Positions 121 to 6,764 of a DNA stretch of 64,000 nt are shown one piece after another (position 1 is the first letter of the stretch; every line of letters starts with the position of its first letter). The notes below the pieces were generated by a model. It saw only the letters and a list, made by a program, of their open reading frames with translations, ran no database searches and was not told the DNA's origin. The stretch lies in the NCBI RefSeq assembly GCF_001968825.1, contig NZ_MIEU01000011.1:310001-374000 (forward strand), read 5' to 3'. Position numbers and translations under genes: made by a program. This DNA comes from Tersicoccus sp. Bi-70. GTDB taxonomy: Bacteria > Actinomycetota > Actinomycetes > Actinomycetales > Micrococcaceae.

Positions 121-1473
121 TCAGGCCGCCATCGGCAGGCCGGCGCCCGCGGCGTCACCGAAGGAGCCGTCGACGTGCACCGGGGTGCGGCCGGCGCGCT
201 CGAGCAGCGAGGAGGCCACCCCGGCGCGGTACCCGGAGCCGCAGTGGACCCACACGCGACCGGCGGGCACCTCGTCCATCCGGGAGACCAGCTCGTGCAG
301 CGGGATGTTGACCGCACCGTCGAGGTGCGACGCGGCGAACTCCTCGGTGCGTCGCACGTCCAGGATCGGCTCGTCGGCGGGGCGGTCCCGGAGCAGGCCG
401 GCCCAGTCGACCCGGTCGTAGGAGAGCACGGGCGTGCCCGGGGCGAGCTGCCGCGGGTCCTCGCCGACGGCAGCGTCGGGGGAGTCGATCCCGATCCGGG
501 ACAGGTCGCGGATCGCGTTCTCGACGTCGTCCTGGGAGCCGACGAGGGTCAGCTGCTGCTCGTACGGGAAGATCCAGCCGAGGAACGTGGTGAAGCTGCC
601 GCCGTTGCCGTACTCGAAGCTGATCGTGCCGGCCAGGTGGTCCGCGGCGTAGGCCACGCGCTGGCGCAGGTCGACGACCCACTCGCCGCGCTCCAGCCGG
701 GCGGTGAGCTCGTCCGTGGTCAGGGACTCGGGCACGCTCAGGTCCGCCTCGACGGGGCCGGCGCTGTTGGCCGGGCCCATGTGCACGTAGTAGCTCGGGT
801 ATGCCGTGAGGTTGGCGATCAGCTCGCGGACGAAGTGCGCCTCGTCGGCGTCGGTGTAGACGTGGTTGGCGGCGAACTGCTCGCCCAGGGTGGACTCGGA
901 GGCGCCGGTCGCGGGGCCGGAGGAGCAGAACGAGCCGAAGCCGTGCGTCGGGTACAGCGCGGCCTGGGCCGTCGCCTCCTTCGCCAGGCGCCGGGCGGAC
1001 GCGTACTGGTCGTGGGTCAGGCCCTCGGTGTGCTCGTGGCCGAGCAGATCGGTGCGGCCGACCGACCCGTAGAGCACACCGCCGCCGGAGAACACGGCCT
1101 CGTCCTGCCCGTGCGAGACGACGAACGAGAGGTGGTGGTGCGTGTGGCCGGGGGTCGCGACGGCCTTGACGGTCAGCTCGCCGACCTGCACGGTCTCGCC
1201 GTCGCTGATCGGCGTCCGGTCGAACGAGACGTCGTCGGCGGCGTTGACCAGGTAGGCCGCGCCGTGCTTCGTCGCGTAGATCAGGCCACCGGTCACGTAG
1301 TCGTTGTGGATGTGGGTCTCGGCCACGTGGGTGACGGTGACGCCGGCGGCCTCGGCGGCCTGCTCGACGCGGTCGATGTCGCGCTGGGCGTCGATGACGA
1401 GCGCGGTGGTGCCGTCGTGCACGAGGTAGCTGCGGTCGCCGAGCTGGGGGGTGTCGATGACGATGACGTCCAT
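121..1473 (-). CDS. cstB: MBL-fold persulfide dioxygenase with two rhodanese domains (CstB-like)
   Basis: This 450-residue protein likely oxidises protein- or thiol-bound persulfides and transfers sulfane sulfur. The N-terminal metallo-beta-lactamase domain (about 1-240) carries the metal-binding stretch THIHNDY at residues 53-59 and PGHTHHH further on. A first rhodanese fold (about 255-340) has no catalytic cysteine, so it is a pseudo-rhodanese. The C-terminal rhodanese (about 365-445) has the active loop HCGSGYR with Cys411. This three-part order matches Staphylococcus CstB. A strong AGGAGG lies upstream of the ATG. It is the last gene of a five-gene sulfur operon (3801 down to 121), 79 bases after trxA. 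The symbol is by architecture only. Confidence 0.85.
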   Translation of the reverse strand: MDVIVIDTPQLGDRSYLVHDGTTALVIDAQRDIDRVEQAAEAAGVTVTHVAETHIHNDYVTGGLIYATKHGAAYLVNAADDVSFDRTPISDGETVQVGELTVKAVATPGHTHHHLSFVVSHGQDEAVFSGGGVLYGSVGRTDLLGHEHTEGLTHDQYASARRLAKEATAQAALYPTHGFGSFCSSGPATGASESTLGEQFAANHVYTDADEAHFVRELIANLTAYPSYYVHMGPANSAGPVEADLSVPESLTTDELTARLERGEWVVDLRQRVAYAADHLAGTISFEYGNGGSFTTFLGWIFPYEQQLTLVGSQDDVENAIRDLSRIGIDSPDAAVGEDPRQLAPGTPVLSYDRVDWAGLLRDRPADEPILDVRRTEEFAASHLDGAVNIPLHELVSRMDEVPAGRVWVHCGSGYRAGVASSLLERAGRTPVHVDGSFGDAAGAGLPMAA

Positions 1474-1552
1474 GGTGATCCTCCTGGGGTGGTTCTCGGG
1501 TCGGTGGTGTGTCAGTGGGTGTGGGTGGAGCGCAGAGGTGGAGCGGCGCGGG

Positions 1553-1930
1553 TCAGGACGCGGTGGCGGCGGCCTGCTGCTCGGCCATGCGGGCCCGGAC
1601 GTCGTCCATGTCGAGGTCCTTGACCGCGCTGATGACCTTCTCGAGGCCGGCGGCGGGCAGCGCGCCGGGCTGGGAGAAGACGGGGATGCCGTCGCGGAAG
1701 GCCATCAGGGTCGGGATCGAGCTGATGCCGGCGGCGGCGGAGAGACGCTGCTCGGCCTCCGTGTCGACCTTCGTGAAGACCACGTCGGTGTGCTTCTCGG
1801 CGGCGGCCGCGTAGGTCGGGGCGAACTGACGGCACGGGCCGCACCAGGAGGCCCAGAAGTCCACGAGGACGACGTCGTTGGTCTCGATGGTGTCGGCGAA
1901 CTGCTGTTCGGTGATGTCGATGACGGCCAT
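1553..1930 (-). CDS. trxA: Thioredoxin
   Basis: A 125-residue cytosolic thioredoxin with the redox motif WCGPC (Cys30, Cys33) and the cis-proline stretch SSIPTLM. The C-terminus extends about 15 residues past the usual thioredoxin fold, rich in Ala, Gln and acidic residues. The open frame runs much further upstream, but the ATG at 1930 is preceded by AAGGAG at good spacing and the family begins here, so the longer reading is rejected. Its position between the TauE-like exporter and the CstB-like enzyme suggests it reduces rhodanese or protein persulfides in this operon rather than being the general thioredoxin; that role is inferred. Confidence 0.9.
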   Translation of the reverse strand: MAVIDITEQQFADTIETNDVVLVDFWASWCGPCRQFAPTYAAAAEKHTDVVFTKVDTEAEQRLSAAAGISSIPTLMAFRDGIPVFSQPGALPAAGLEKVISAVKDLDMDDVRARMAEQQAAATAS

Positions 1931-1977
1931 GGTGGGAACTCCTTCGGGGGAGAGGGGACGAGGGGGGAGGGAGGGAA

Positions 1978-2838
1978 TCAGGCGGTGGCGGTGCGCCGCA
2001 GCGGGCACCGGGGAACGGTGAACCAGCAGGCCACCGCGCCGAGAGCGAGGGCCGCGGCCACACCGCCGACGGCGATGCCGGTGGCACCGGGCAGGTTCTG
2101 CGCCAGGACGATGACGCCCATGGCGAGGACGAAGACGCCGAACCAGCGGCGGAGCGCGGGCGCCGGGATCCGGTCGACCAGGCGGGCACCGACGAGGCTG
2201 CCGGCGATCGCCACGAGCGTCACCGCGCCCACCAGCGGCCAGTTCAGGGCCGTGCTGGAGGTCAGGTGACCGGCCAGCCCGGCCGCGGAGTTGACGGTGA
2301 TGACGAGCAGGGACGTGCCGACGGCCTGCGGCATCGACAGCCCGGCCAGCAGGGTCAGCGCCGGCACGATCATGAAGCCGCCACCCGCACCCACCAGCCC
2401 GGTGAGCATGCCGACGCCGAGCCCGACTGCGAGGACGAGCGGCACGCGCCGCCGCACCGGATCCGCCGCGTTGCCTGACCCGCGGCGCCCTCGGATCATC
2501 GCGATCGACGTCACGAGCATCATCAGGGCGAAGAGGATCATCAGCACGGTGCCCGGGATGAGCCGGCCGATCAGCCCGCCACCGAAGGCGCCGAGCACGC
2601 CGGCGGCACCGAAGATCAGGCCGGTGCGCCAGGCGACCCGGCCGGCCCGGGCGTGGGCGATGACACTGACCGCGGAGGTCGTGCCGACCACCACGAGCGA
2701 GGCGGTGATCGCCTGCGCAGGAGCGAAACCGGCGACCCACGTCAGCACCGGGATGGTGAGGATGGATCCGCCCCCGCCGAGCAGACCGAGCAGGAGCCCG
2801 ATCAGCACGGAGAAGAGGAGCGTGAGGGTGAGGGTCAT
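1978..2838 (-). CDS. TSUP-family sulfite/anion exporter (TauE/SafE-like)
   Basis: A 286-residue integral membrane protein with about eight hydrophobic segments in two similar halves. Each half starts with a glycine-rich loop (LLGGGGSILTIPVL near residue 20; LVGAGGGFMIVPAL near residue 150), typical of the TSUP/TauE-SafE family. Members export sulfite, sulfoacetate or other sulfur anions. In Staphylococcus cst loci a TauE protein accompanies CstR, CstA and CstB, so export of sulfite or thiosulfate formed by persulfide oxidation is a reasonable inference. GAAGGA precedes the ATG; neighbours lie 40 and 47 bases away on the same strand. Confidence 0.88.
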   Translation of the reverse strand: MTLTLTLLFSVLIGLLLGLLGGGGSILTIPVLTWVAGFAPAQAITASLVVVGTTSAVSVIAHARAGRVAWRTGLIFGAAGVLGAFGGGLIGRLIPGTVLMILFALMMLVTSIAMIRGRRGSGNAADPVRRRVPLVLAVGLGVGMLTGLVGAGGGFMIVPALTLLAGLSMPQAVGTSLLVITVNSAAGLAGHLTSSTALNWPLVGAVTLVAIAGSLVGARLVDRIPAPALRRWFGVFVLAMGVIVLAQNLPGATGIAVGGVAAALALGAVACWFTVPRCPLRRTATA

Positions 2839-2878
2839 CGGTGGCGTCCTTCGCAGGTCGGGTGCGTGGGCGGGTGGC

Positions 2879-3175
2879 TCAGGCGGTGGGCAGGCCGGCG
2901 CGCTGCCAGGCGACCATGCCGCCGGCCATCGTGTCGGCCGCGAAGCCGGCCTGGTTCAGGGCATCCGCGACGTGAGCGCTGCGATTGCCGCTGCGGCAGA
3001 CCACGATCACGGGCCGGGTGCGGTCCAGTTCGCCCAGCCGGTCGCCCAGGGTGCCCATCGGGATGTGCAGGGCGCCGGGGATCATGCCGGCGCGCACCTC
3101 GACGTCCTCGCGGACGTCGAGGACCTGCTCGTTCGAACGACGCCGATCGGCGTCGGCCACGGTGATCTCGGACAT
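2879..3175 (-). CDS. Single-domain rhodanese sulfurtransferase
   Basis: A 98-residue rhodanese domain with the active-site loop CRSGNRS (Cys60) after a hydrophobic strand, and the conserved GALHIPMG stretch. It likely moves sulfane sulfur between thiols within the operon. The reading frame is open far upstream, but the ATG at 3175 has GAGGAG about 9 bases before it and gives a full-length domain without extension. It lies 38 bases after the membrane rhodanese gene and 40 bases before the TSUP exporter, so co-transcription is very likely. Confidence 0.9.
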   Translation of the reverse strand: MSEITVADADRRRSNEQVLDVREDVEVRAGMIPGALHIPMGTLGDRLGELDRTRPVIVVCRSGNRSAHVADALNQAGFAADTMAGGMVAWQRAGLPTA

Positions 3176-3213
3176 GGTGTCGTCTCCTCGACGTGTCAGG
3201 GGGTGGGGGTGAC

Positions 3214-3801
3214 TCAGGCGGTGGGGCGGGGCAGCTGACCGATCGCGGACGCGGCGGTCGGCTCCTCGGCGGTGCGGTTCCAGGGCATCTTCGCCAGCGC
3301 CTGCCCCATGGCGCAGGTGTTCGAGGCGGCGGAGAACGCGAGGCCGCCACCGATCACGCCGGCGACGGCGCGCAGCTTCGGCGAGACGAAGCGCCCGCCG
3401 AGGATGCTGGCGAGCACGAGCGAGCCGGCGGCCATCCGCACCTGGCGCTCCATGGCCCAGGTGCCGGCGCCACGGACGACGTCGCCGCCGGCCGCCGCGT
3501 AGCCCGGCGCGCCACCGGTGAGCACGTACGCCGTGTCGATGCCGGCGCCGGCGAGCTTCACGCGGGCCTGCTCGGCGCGGACGCCGGACTGGCAGACGAG
3601 CACGACGCGCTCGCCGAGGCGGGAGGCCAGCTCGGCGGTGTGCTCGGCGAGCAGCGGCAGCGGCACGTTGTAGGAGCCGCTGATGTGCAGGGTCTCGAAC
3701 TCGGCGGCGGACCGCACGTCGAGGATCAGGAGGTCGTCGTGTCGATCGATCCACCCGCGCACGGTGGTGGGCTCGACGGTGGTGATGGTGGGGGTCGTCA
3801 T
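3214..3801 (-). CDS. Rhodanese with C-terminal DUF2892 membrane domain (YgaP-like)
   Basis: This 195-residue protein has an N-terminal rhodanese domain with active loop CQSGVRAE (Cys70) and a C-terminal pair of hydrophobic segments (about 127-180) ending in the DUF2892 signature CAMGQALAKMPWNR. The same order is seen in E. coli YgaP, a membrane-bound sulfurtransferase. It is the first gene of the sulfur operon, starting 132 bases from the divergent CsoR/CstR-type gene. AGAGGACCTC precedes the ATG at 3801. Two operator-like palindromes lie just upstream, so its promoter is probably repressed by that regulator and released by reactive sulfur. Confidence 0.88.
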   Translation of the reverse strand: MTTPTITTVEPTTVRGWIDRHDDLLILDVRSAAEFETLHISGSYNVPLPLLAEHTAELASRLGERVVLVCQSGVRAEQARVKLAGAGIDTAYVLTGGAPGYAAAGGDVVRGAGTWAMERQVRMAAGSLVLASILGGRFVSPKLRAVAGVIGGGLAFSAASNTCAMGQALAKMPWNRTAEEPTAASAIGQLPRPTA

Positions 3802-3839
3802 GAGGTCCTCTCGACGGGTTCTCGATGGGGTGTGACACC

Positions 3840-3869
3840 AGCATGACAGATACCCCCAGGGGTATGTAA
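3840..3869 (-). promoter_or_regulatory. Candidate promoter of the sulfur operon
   Basis: On the minus strand a -35-like TTACAT (3864-3869) is separated by 18 bases from a -10-like CATGCT (3840-3845). The upstream operator (3850-3865) falls inside the spacer, as expected for a repressed promoter. Assigned by eye; both hexamers are imperfect. Confidence 0.4.
3850..3865. promoter_or_regulatory. CsoR/CstR-type operator 1
   Basis: A perfect inverted repeat ATACCCC-CA-GGGGTAT in the 132-base divergent promoter region. A/T-flanked C-run/G-run dyads of this form are the known binding sites of the CsoR/RcnR/CstR repressor family. The next gene on the right encodes such a repressor. Confidence 0.8.
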
Positions 3870-3870
3870 G

Positions 3871-3886
3871 ACACCCCCCGGGGTAT
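3871..3886. promoter_or_regulatory. CsoR/CstR-type operator 2
   Basis: ACACCCC-CC-GGGGTAT differs from operator 1 by one base in the left arm. Its centre is exactly 21 bases, two helical turns, from operator 1. It abuts a TACGAT -10 (3886-3891) for the rightward regulator gene, which suggests autoregulation. Confidence 0.75.
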
Positions 3887-3933
3887 ACGATGGAGAACTC
3901 TTCCGCAACTCGGACACGCCACAGGAGGCACCC

Positions 3934-4191
3934 GTGCAGCTCGACACCGAGGAACTGACCCCCGTCATCAACCGCCTGAAGCGCGCCCAGGGGCAGCTGG
4001 CCGGCGTCGTGCGCATGCTCCAGGAGGGGCAGGACTGCAAGGACGTCGTCACGCAGCTCTCCGCGGTCTCCAAGGCGCTGGACCGGGCCGGCTTCGCGAT
4101 CATCGCGAGCGGCCTGCAGCAGTGCCTGAGCAACCCCGACGAGTCGCTCGACACCAAGGACCTCGAGAAGCTGTTCCTCTCCCTCGCCTGA
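3934..4191 (+). CDS. cstR: CsoR/CstR-family persulfide- or metal-sensing repressor
   Basis: An 85-residue all-helical regulator of the CsoR/RcnR family, beginning with the typical stretch INRLKRAQGQLAGV. Only two cysteines are present, Cys35 and Cys64, matching the pair conserved in the family. The histidine that completes the copper site of CsoR is absent (Gly60-Leu61-Gln62-Gln63 precede Cys64). Two cysteines without the histidine are characteristic of CstR, which senses per- and polysulfides by forming a sulfur bridge. Context agrees: the divergent operon encodes persulfide-handling enzymes, and matching operators lie between them. The symbol is inferred from residues and context. Confidence 0.85.
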   Translation: MQLDTEELTPVINRLKRAQGQLAGVVRMLQEGQDCKDVVTQLSAVSKALDRAGFAIIASGLQQCLSNPDESLDTKDLEKLFLSLA

Positions 4192-4240
4192 GCAGCGGGC
4201 AGGCGAGGACGATCGCTGCGACCGGGAACGAGGAGTGCGT

Positions 4241-4597
4241 ATGACCGCGAACCGACCGGCAGGACTGCTGCTGCACGTGTTCGGCGGCGACCCGGCGGCC
4301 GTGACCGCGGGTGTCCGCGTGGCGCTGAACGCCCGGCGGGACCTACGAGACGACGCCGTCATCGAGCTCGTCGTCCAGGGCGGGGCGGTCCGGGGCCTGC
4401 TCGCGGACAGCGAGCCCGCGGCGTCGCTCGCCCCCCTCGACGACGATGCCGGCATCACCGTGCTGGCCTGCGAGAACAGCATGCGCTCGGCCGACCTGGA
4501 TGCCGCACGGCTGCGCGACGGCGTCGAGACCGTTCCTGCCGCGGTGGGACACCTCGCCCGTCGGCAGTGGGACGGCTGGGCGTACGTGCGCCTCTGA
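4241..4597 (+). CDS. DsrE-family protein
   Basis: A 118-residue protein resembling the DsrE/DsrF-like family of small sulfur-carrier proteins: an alternating beta-alpha pattern, a strand ending in a single cysteine (VLACENSM, Cys77) and the typical family ending RRQWDGWAYVRL. It begins 49 bases after the CstR-like gene, probably in the same transcript. The ATG at 4241 is chosen over a GTG six bases upstream because AGGAG lies 5 bases before it. A role in binding or relaying sulfane sulfur is inferred from family and neighbours. It is not part of the characterised staphylococcal cst set. Confidence 0.75.
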   Translation: MTANRPAGLLLHVFGGDPAAVTAGVRVALNARRDLRDDAVIELVVQGGAVRGLLADSEPAASLAPLDDDAGITVLACENSMRSADLDAARLRDGVETVPAAVGHLARRQWDGWAYVRL

Positions 4598-4650: not shown

Positions 4651-5019
4651 CTACGTCAGGCGGCGGTCCAGGATGTCGAGGAACTCATCGGCCCGCTCCA
4701 CCTGGCGGGCCAGCTTGGCGCGCCGGTCGCGGGCGTCCTGCTGCAGCGCGTCGAGCTCGGCGCGAGCGCGCGCCCGGTCCTCGTCGGCTCCGTCGCCCTC
4801 GACCACGTCGAGCAGGTCCAGGAGCCGCCCCATCTCCGCGGTCGAGTAGTCGAGCGCCTTCATCCGCCGGATCGTCATGAGCCGACGCAGATCCTCGTCG
4901 GTGTAGACGCGGAAGCCCCCCTCGGTGCGACCGGACGGCGGCAGCAGGCCGATCGCCTCGTAGTGGCGCAGCGTGCGCGAGGACAACCCTGACCGCTCGG
5001 CCATCTCACCGATGTGCAT
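4651..5019 (-). CDS. MerR-family transcriptional regulator
   Basis: A 122-residue MerR-type regulator. The N-terminal winged helix shows IGEMAERSGLSSRTLRHYE and GFRVYTDEDLRRL, followed by a long coiled-coil helix (about 75-120). No cysteine cluster for metal binding is present, so the inducer is not a soft metal bound in the classical way. It is divergent from the SulP transporter gene and about 70 bases from an 11-1-11 dyad that is the likely operator. Regulation of the transporter and of itself is inferred. Confidence 0.85.
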   Translation of the reverse strand: MHIGEMAERSGLSSRTLRHYEAIGLLPPSGRTEGGFRVYTDEDLRRLMTIRRMKALDYSTAEMGRLLDLLDVVEGDGADEDRARARAELDALQQDARDRRAKLARQVERADEFLDILDRRLT

Positions 5020-5109: not shown

Positions 5110-5237
5110 GAGATGAACCTTCACGCGTGGTCAAGGTTTCCGATCCCTCGTGCGCGCTCGTCACCGGCAGCGTCGACACCGGGCTCACCGGCACCGCGCG
5201 CCCCGCTCAGCACCGCTCATTCCCCTCGGAGTCGCCC

Positions 5238-6764
5238 ATGTCCTCCCGCCCGGCCCGCTTCGGCACCACCGCCCTCACGCCCGAGCAGCGGGGTTCCCTG
5301 CGCGTCGCGCTGCGGAGCCCTCGACTGCTGCGCACCGAGCTCCTCGCCGGGCTCGTCGTGGCCCTCGCCCTGATCCCGGAGGCCATCGCCTTCTCCGTCA
5401 TCGCCGGGGTCGATCCGCGGGTCGGCCTGTTCGCCGCCTTCACCATGGCGGTCACGACCGCCGTCCTCGGTGGGCGTCCCGCCATGATCTCCGCCGCCAC
5501 CGGCGCCGTCGCCCTGGTCGTGGCGCCGTTGATGGCCTCGCACGGGGTGGACTACCTCATCGCCGCCGTCATCCTCGCGGGCCTGATGCAGGTCATGCTG
5601 GGGCTGGTGGGGGTCGCCCGGCTGATGCGCTTCGTGCCCCGCTCCGTGATGGTGGGCTTCGTCAACGCCCTGGCCATCCTGATCTTCCTCTCGCAGGTCC
5701 CGGAGCTCATCGGCGTGCCCTGGGCGGTGTACCCGCTCACCGCCCTCGGACTGGTGATCGTCTTCCTGCTGCCCCGACTGACCACCGCGGTCCCGGCGCC
5801 GCTGGTGGCCATCGTCGTCGTCACCGCCGTCGTGCTGGTGCTCGGCGTGGCGGTCCCGTCCGTGGGCGACAAGGGCCAGCTCCCCGATTCCCTGCCCGCG
5901 TTCCTCGTCCCGCAGGTCCCCTTCACCGTCGAGACCCTCCGGATCATCGCGCCGTTCTCGCTGACGATGGCGCTCGTCGGACTGCTGGAATCGCTGATGA
6001 CGGCCAAGCTCGTGGACGACATCACCGACACCCGCTCGAACAAGACCCGCGAGTCGTGGGCGCAGGGCGTCGCCAACGTCGTCACCGGCTTCTTCGGCGG
6101 CATGGGCGGCTGCGCCATGATCGGCCAGACGATGATCAACGTCCGTGCCTCCGGCGCCCGCACACGCCTGTCCACCTTCGCCGCCGGGGTGTTCCTGCTG
6201 ATCCTCGTGGTGGGCCTCGGCGACGTCGTCGGACGGATCCCCATGGCCGCACTGGTGGCCGTGATGATCTTCGTGTCCTGGGCGACGTTCGACTGGCACT
6301 CCGTCCGCCCCCGCACGCTCCGGCGGATGCCGGTGGCCGAGACCCTGGTGATGCTTGCGACCGTGGTGGTGACGGTGGCCTCGCACAACCTGGCGCTCGG
6401 CGTCATGGTGGGCGTGGTCGTGGCGATGGTCGCGTTCGCTCGCCGGGTGGCGCACCTGGTGACCGTGGATCGGGTCGTGGAGCAGCGCGACGGCGAGCAG
6501 ACCGCCGTCTACAGCGTGCACGGCGAGCTGTTCTTCGCCTCGTCCAACGACCTGTACACGTCGTTCCGGTACGCCGAGGATCCGCACCGGGTGGAGATCG
6601 ACTTCTCCGACTCCCACCTGTGGGACGCCTCCACCGTCGCGGCCGTGGATTCCATCACCGACAAGTACGCCCAGCGCGGCGTCCAGGTGCGCGTGGTGGG
6701 ACTGAATGCGGTCAGCAGCCGGTTCCGCGACCGCGTCAGTGGCGCTCTCGACGCGAGCCACTGA
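5238..6764 (+). CDS. SulP-family inorganic anion transporter with STAS domain
   Basis: A 508-residue membrane transporter of the SLC26/SulP family. About eleven hydrophobic segments fill residues 30-410, including the conserved early stretch ALALIPEAIAFSVIAGVDP. A C-terminal STAS domain (about 415-500) contains FSDSHLWDASTVAAVD. Members carry sulfate, bicarbonate or related anions into the cell; the sequence does not decide the substrate. The ATG at 5238 has GGAG 6 bases upstream and gives a normal N-terminus; an earlier in-frame GTG at 5127 lacks a ribosome site. Position beside the persulfide operon makes sulfate or sulfite plausible, but MerR-linked SulP genes also occur elsewhere. Confidence 0.85.
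   Translation: MSSRPARFGTTALTPEQRGSLRVALRSPRLLRTELLAGLVVALALIPEAIAFSVIAGVDPRVGLFAAFTMAVTTAVLGGRPAMISAATGAVALVVAPLMASHGVDYLIAAVILAGLMQVMLGLVGVARLMRFVPRSVMVGFVNALAILIFLSQVPELIGVPWAVYPLTALGLVIVFLLPRLTTAVPAPLVAIVVVTAVVLVLGVAVPSVGDKGQLPDSLPAFLVPQVPFTVETLRIIAPFSLTMALVGLLESLMTAKLVDDITDTRSNKTRESWAQGVANVVTGFFGGMGGCAMIGQTMINVRASGARTRLSTFAAGVFLLILVVGLGDVVGRIPMAALVAVMIFVSWATFDWHSVRPRTLRRMPVAETLVMLATVVVTVASHNLALGVMVGVVVAMVAFARRVAHLVTVDRVVEQRDGEQTAVYSVHGELFFASSNDLYTSFRYAEDPHRVEIDFSDSHLWDASTVAAVDSITDKYAQRGVQVRVVGLNAVSSRFRDRVSGALDASH

Follow-up and report, generated by a model that had tools for sequence, protein, structure and literature searches.

We analysed the window, a stretch of 64,000 nucleotides from the actinobacterium Tersicoccus sp. 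Bi-70 (G000:C11:310001-374000; contig NZ_MIEU01000011.1) within a 3.48 Mb genome (G+C 72.9%), and focused on a block of seven genes at 121-4597 that we read as a CstR-type regulon for sulfane sulfur (Table 1). A most likely Micrococcaceae origin of the window agrees with a comparison in its family group, where contig C14 of genome G095 includes sequence identical to Arthrobacter wenxiniae NZ_JAAMFM010000021.1, a member of the Micrococcaceae. An earlier note, made from the sequence alone, had described a CstR-like repressor followed by a DsrE-like gene and divergent from a five-gene operon encoding a membrane rhodanese, a soluble rhodanese, a TauE-like exporter, thioredoxin and a CstB-like fusion. 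Translations of the open reading frames (ORFs) and Pfam matches bear out all seven genes, with the coordinates, order and strands as described. The matches exceed the Pfam cut-offs for six of the seven proteins, the exception being the DsrE-like protein. Within the five-gene run (121-3801) the intergenic gaps measure 38-79 bp. The DsrE-like gene begins 43 bp past the end of cstR and forms with it one unit that diverges from the run.

Table 1. Genes and predicted operators of the block, numbered from the first nucleotide of the window, and the distant small ORF P0009. MBL, metallo-β-lactamase; aa, amino acids.
Feature	Position	Strand	Evidence and remarks
MBL - pseudo-rhodanese - rhodanese fusion, CstB / type III persulfide dioxygenase architecture	121..1473	-	Pfam Rhodanese and Lactamase_B; Gly131 replaces the iron-ligand Asp; rhodanese Cys411 present
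Thioredoxin, WCGPC active site	1553..1930	-	Pfam Thioredoxin; TIGR01068 above cut-off; stop codon read
TauE/SafE-family exporter (predicted)	1978..2838	-	PF01925, 173.7 bits
Soluble single-domain rhodanese, loop CRSGNR	2879..3175	-	Pfam Rhodanese
Rhodanese with C-terminal YgaP-like transmembrane domain, loop CQSGVR	3214..3801	-	Pfam Rhodanese and YgaP-like_TM
Operator 1 (predicted), ATACCCCCAGGGGTAT (ATACCCC and GGGGTAT around CA), perfect palindrome	3850..3865		Fits the published ScCsoR site ATACC-N6-GGTAT
Operator 2 (predicted), ACACCCCCCGGGGTAT (ACACCCC and GGGGTAT around CC), one mismatch	3871..3886		Start 21 bp from operator 1
CstR-type repressor, DUF156, 85 aa	3934..4191	+	C35, C64, G60 at the CsoR His place; Trns_repr_metal PF02583
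DsrE-like protein of the MTH1491/ST0148 kind	4235..4597	+	Cys79 kept in 31/31 aligned rows
P0009, 57-aa Cys/His ORF, MCRAVTCKTCGKTTWAGCGQH...	G000:C16:369574-369744		Exact operator 369492-369507, 66 bp upstream

The repressor matches PF02583 at 80.1 bits against a cut-off of 22.8. We aligned 81 rows, namely the query and 80 cstR places, which are the best-scoring of the family search and include the window's own. Both cysteines are present in 81/81 rows. Position 60, the place of the metal-binding His in CsoR, is Gly in 79/81 rows, Ser in 2/81 and His in none. The closest solved structure, 7mq1, is filed as CsoR; we take it to be pneumococcal CstR. At up to two mismatches the window holds two operator sites, where 0.07 are expected by chance, and none of 100 shuffled controls carried two. 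Across the whole genome, at up to one mismatch, there are three sites, the two in the window and an exact one at G000:C16:369492-369507, and the pattern read backwards gives zero. The operator is also conserved among relatives. The 250 bp upstream of cstR contain a site in 79/80 places at up to two mismatches, in 74/80 at up to one and in 31/80 exactly; 65/80 have two or more sites, and in 45/80 two sites are spaced by 20-22 bp. Together, the cysteine pattern, the absence of His and the operator pair support the prediction, in line with the earlier note, that the block's repressor is of the CstR type. ScCsoR of Streptomyces coelicolor binds a 16-nt palindrome, ATACC-N6-GGTAT, in electrophoretic mobility shift assays, polysulfide frees the DNA, and Cys37 and Cys66 are both involved (PMC7533328). 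We therefore infer that the control mechanism of the block is a known one.

The block is very likely a self-regulated regulon for the detoxification of sulfane sulfur (persulfide and polysulfide), of the CstR kind. By analogy with published relatives, sensing, oxidation and export would proceed as follows. The reduced repressor would occupy the two palindromes and shut both divergent promoters, and persulfidation of C35, with C64 helping, would release it. The rhodaneses may then, with the DsrE-like protein and thioredoxin, gather sulfane sulfur, hand it on or reduce it, while the MBL-rhodanese fusion would convert persulfide to sulfite and TauE would export the product. The distant P0009, which is coupled to an S-adenosylmethionine (SAM) methyltransferase, most likely answers to this repressor as well. 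As a CstR regulon the block is soundly read, and it adds one more example to a kind already published.

Several points weigh against this reading. Repressor-controlled expression and the biochemistry of the block in Tersicoccus sp. Bi-70 are predictions, and the exporter as well as its putative substrate are assigned by family. No sulfide:quinone oxidoreductase (SQR) is encoded within the block, though no genome search was aimed at SQR. Thioredoxin lies near 20/80 and DsrE near 14/80 related cstR genes (neighbourhoods, here and below, are 6 kb around the 80 genes); therefore, neither is an essential part. Finally, the Asp that Gly131 replaces in the fusion is an iron ligand in persulfide dioxygenases (PDOs), and changing it in AcPDO (D130 to Ala, Glu or His) leaves 0.5-2% of the activity (PMC6060420), which speaks against an efficient dioxygenase in the block.

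The earlier note called the fusion a CstB-like oxidase, and the likeness holds for its architecture. An AlphaFold model from 15 sequences (mean predicted local distance difference test score, pLDDT, 83.9; predicted template modelling score, pTM, 0.82) matches 3tp9 nearly end to end (template modelling scores 0.89/0.85). It also matches the S. aureus MBL protein 3r2u, presumably CstB. The rhodanese Cys411 is kept in 17/17 near and 76/76 distant homologues. The iron site is where the likeness fails. H54 and H110 of the 2-His-1-Asp triad of canonical PDOs are kept, and Gly131 stands in place of the Asp, which places the fusion outside canonical CstB/PDO. The alignment reads SGG in the window's fusion versus SGD or TGD in 3tp9, 3r2u, 8zbd, 4ysb and 2gcu. 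Gly131 is found in 17/17 near homologues (>400 bits, window included) and Asp in 76/76 distant ones. In a search of 198 genomes of the phylum, of which 83 matched, the residue was read in the 29 best loci besides the window's and was Gly in all of them. A tree of 82 rows (all Gly rows, a random draw of 35 of the 76 Asp rows, and the window entered twice) groups the 47 Gly rows together, split from the others by a branch supported at 100/100. Given this Asp-less clade, the iron site of the fusion is probably not the standard 2-His-1-Asp site. All 93 sequences compared retain H54, H56, D58, H110 and H177, and our guess is that His54 and His110 hold the iron together with a replacement for the Asp, for example His56 or His177. 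The fusion is the sole full-length copy in the genome. MBL-rhodanese fusions lie near 63/80 cstR genes, 57 with the Asp type, 13 with the Asp-less type and 7 with both. Matches of ~100-160 bits near other cstR genes were considered as the same protein and rejected, as the tree sets the 35 sampled in a separate, Asp-bearing clade.

A possible, though rather unlikely, alternative is that the fusion is no longer a dioxygenase but a persulfide-binding sulfurtransferase or hydrolase, and that thioredoxin rather than oxygen disposes of the sulfur as H2S. Gly131 runs throughout the clade as sampled, loss of the Asp cost AcPDO 98-99.5% of its activity (PMC6060420), and the thioredoxin gene adjoins the fusion gene in the operon. 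In addition, seven of the 80 cstR neighbourhoods (L075, L082, L107, L115, L117, L125 and L134) hold an Asp-less and an Asp-bearing fusion side by side, which suggests that the two types have different jobs. Two observations argue for an oxygenase nonetheless: the five residues named above are invariant across the whole comparison, and an apparent member of the clade takes up oxygen. PMC7533328 prints a single guide RNA (sgRNA) for the S. coelicolor pdo gene, whose in-frame reading is TGGSLL. This sgRNA matches, with one mismatch, the Gly131 site of L351, a locus from an 8.2 Mb genome where csoR-type, tauE and rhodanese genes are close by. Judged from these letters, ScPDO is very probably a member of the Asp-less clade. 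With glutathione persulfide it took up O2 at a Vmax of 1.19 umol/min/mg (PMC7533328) and thus appears active, if slow, at ~1/100 of the 111.5 U/mg reported for AcPDO under other conditions and in another assay. By this analogy we read the Asp-less fusion as a slow or different, yet not dead, oxygenase. The Asp-less actinobacterial PDO-like clade is a natural experiment on the role of the ligand, with one apparently active member in hand.

Thioredoxin and DsrE were taken in the earlier note for an actinobacterial variant of the pathway, and a search for the same gene order was proposed there. TauE is found near 63/80 cstR genes, a YgaP-like protein near 58/80 and rhodanese near 38/80. All five operon genes occur in 16/80 neighbourhoods and all six in 7/80. 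The exact order of YgaP-like protein, rhodanese, TauE, thioredoxin and fusion, divergent from cstR, recurs in 5/80, namely in the window, in the same-genus genome G045 (L065, where no DsrE match was found) and in three more loci of the family. DsrE directly follows CstR in 7/80. These shared orders and gene sets would fit a lineage-specific extension, but thioredoxin and DsrE are a minority option in the family, and both genes occur in a CstR-type cluster of Bacillus licheniformis (PMC9918477). An actinobacterial extension is therefore improbable, and exclusivity to the phylum was rejected on the Bacillus cluster. The two genes are optional modules rather than an actinobacterial invention, and the modules of the regulon are combined freely among relatives.

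The DsrE-like protein itself scores 18.7 bits against Pfam DsrE, under the cut-off of 22.7, and its putative assignment draws on solved relatives. It matches MTH1491 (1l1s, E 3e-13) and ST0148 (2pd2, E 6e-13), both titled hypothetical, which we take to have the DsrE-like fold. An engineered structure titled 'DrsE like sulfur reductase' also matches (E 9e-12). Relatives of the window's protein are present in 40/197 family genomes, and a CstR-type gene lies within the same 3.3 kb in 10 of the 30 DsrE-like loci read (window included).

It is very improbable that the repressor senses copper as a CsoR and that the block is an island for copper resistance with thiol chemistry. The protein family is the same, the operator fits the general CsoR type and the PDB labels the repressor's relatives CsoR, but the metal-ligand His is Gly here and absent from every aligned row, two other family members in the genome carry the canonical C-H-C, no site at up to three mismatches of the CstR-type operator occurs in the stretches of these paralogues (3.2 and 2.4 kb), and the window neighbours are sulfur genes with no copper pumps. 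The missing His and the two separate C-H-C paralogues led us to reject it.

The third operator of the genome precedes P0009, which has no Pfam or NCBIfam model. Its motif is C-x4-C-x2-C-x7-C-x2-H-x13-C with TWxGCGxH. Residues M1, C2, C7, C10, T13, T14, W15, G17, C18, G19, H21, V25, V29, P30 and C35 are invariant in 30 rows, which are 30 of the 80 named loci described below. The stop codon of P0009 overlaps the start of a TPMT/TehB-like SAM methyltransferase, and this stretch (G000:C16:369492-370391 = L147:4993-5892) is predicted to be a second CstR-controlled unit. P0009 occurs in 72/120 family genomes, 70/82 with a CstR-type match (best E up to 1e-15) versus 2/38 without (Fisher 6.7e-18). Among 198 genomes of the phylum, 19 have P0009, 43 have CstR and 12 have both (Fisher 4e-5); the compared genomes are related, so that kinship inflates both Fisher values and they overstate independence. 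An operator of its own (up to one mismatch, within 250 bp) precedes 69/96 full-length P0009 relatives of the family loci. Of the 27 relatives lacking one, 15 follow a CstR-type gene of the same strand at a distance of up to about 165 bp. Copies with no cstR within 2 kb, as far as the stretch read extends, carry the operator in 35/49 cases (fragments included).

A wider search gave 80 named actinobacterial loci, the best 80 of 584 confirmed, and 78 of them are distinct. In this selection a CstR-type gene lies in the stretch in 56/78, the operator lies within 300 bp in 40/78, and either the operator or a place directly behind cstR is found in 53/78; the control gave the operator in 46/4,674 random 300-base stretches of the same loci. 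The 58 CstR-type genes in the best 80 have A, G, S or T at position 60, never His. On the Curtobacterium plasmid pC1a, an unlisted P0009 ORF is flanked by a gene for a 'metal-sensitive transcriptional regulator' on one side and by genes for rhodanese, DsrE, TauE, thioredoxin and MBL proteins on the other. The P0009 ORF of a Rhodococcus erythropolis plasmid has TauE and rhodanese genes at a distance of 3-4 kb, and the stretch has no listed regulator of this type. Among 30 plasmid places from 61 matching records, 28 have no feature listed for P0009, in a gene table that is incomplete. CstR-P0009 pairs with equal spacing and 81-84% identity to P0009 were also seen in L248-L253, from Haematomicrobium, Microbacterium, Thermocrispum, Cellulosimicrobium and Microlunatus, one Microbacterium pair on a 465-kb plasmid; such a conserved pair across genera suggests horizontal transfer.

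Other counts speak against the link between P0009 and CstR. P0009 is missing from 12/82 CstR-bearing family genomes, including the two other genomes of the window's genus, and 7/19 phylum genomes with P0009 lack a CstR-type match at E 1e-13. Twelve of the 27 operator-less copies are not directly behind cstR, and 9/78 of the distinct loci among the best 80 of 584 have neither the operator nor cstR in the stretch. The operator occurs in 243/4,000 stretches of 250 bases picked at random from the family loci, a control that is high because these loci were chosen around cstR and its promoters. Pairing with the methyltransferase is rare (5/208 distinct places). Taken as a whole, P0009 is a probable, overlooked member of the CstR regulon, because of its operator, its operon and its co-occurrence with CstR.

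A model of the L248 relative of P0009 reached a mean pLDDT of 73 and a pTM of 0.42, a fold search with the small-protein model found nothing (best E 5.8), and a sequence search of the PDB gave one match, at E 0.59. A literature search for the WAGCGQH motif or a small cysteine-rich protein of a CstR regulon returned no paper, which is thin ground for calling it unpublished. Candidate functions are a sulfane-sulfur sink or carrier, or a zinc protein; a zinc-limitation response to sulfide reported in S. aureus (PMC5480029) makes the zinc idea worth testing. Tentatively, and with less than even confidence, we propose P0009 as a new CstR-regulon family of Actinomycetota that takes up sulfane sulfur or protects zinc at high persulfide, sometimes with a TPMT/TehB-like enzyme that methylates sulfide or persulfide, beside a PDO clade lacking the iron carboxylate ligand. 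The Asp-less oxidase clade and P0009 are what is new here, and for P0009 the association evidence is strong. If P0009 takes part in the persulfide response, its knock-out would be an easy and direct test.

The operators, the missing Asp and everything outside the window were absent from the earlier note. Beyond the fusion gene and on the same strand, L064:6036-8120 (G000:C11:308036-310120, mostly outside the window) contains an ORF with the motif RHAFDADHI, which looks like a NiCoT nickel/cobalt transporter, and another YgaP-like membrane rhodanese, which scores 293 bits against the one in the window; the two could extend the operon. Within the window, a MerR-type regulator (4651-5019, minus strand; Pfam) diverges from a long transporter-like ORF (5127-6764, plus strand), SulP-like by eye, and the inverted repeat CAACCTTAACC-aat-GGTTAGGGTTG separates them. 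Outside the window, L064:3131-4456 holds a short helix-turn-helix-like ORF followed by a P-loop ORF (GPPGAGKST), which by eye look like a zeta-toxin-type pair.

CstR-type sulfane-sulfur regulons have already been published for Streptomyces (PMC7533328), and the ScCsoR circuit of S. coelicolor, comprising SCO0618 pdo, SCO0619 tauE, SCO0620 csoR and SCO0621 rhod (PMC7533328), is among the closest known systems. It shares with the block the two-Cys CstR-type repressor, the ATACC-N6-GGTAT operator, rhodanese, TauE and an MBL-rhodanese fusion, very probably of the same Asp-less clade, but it has four genes in another order. The text of PMC7533328 never mentions DsrE and mentions thioredoxin once, in the introduction. 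The yrkD cluster of B. licheniformis (11 genes) resembles the block in its CstR-type repressor, DsrE (YrkE), thioredoxin (YdfQ), rhodanese, PDO-like protein and TauE, and differs by an additional TusA, SQR, second PDO and NreBC two-component system (PMC9918477). Its genes are co-directional with the repressor gene first (PMC9918477), whereas the window's block is divergent. In S. aureus, the cst operon consists of cstR, tauE, cstA, cstB and sqr, and CstR likewise controls a persulfide dioxygenase-sulfurtransferase and TauE; deletion of cstR raises tauE, cstA, cstB and sqr 40- to 70-fold (PMC5480029). CstA fuses DsrE, rhodanese and TusA parts (PMC9918477). Unlike in the window's block, CstA is thus one multidomain protein and SQR is present, and thioredoxin is not among the CstR targets given in the available text of PMC5480029. 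The S. aureus MBL protein 3r2u is like the window's fusion in fold and architecture, but keeps the Asp.

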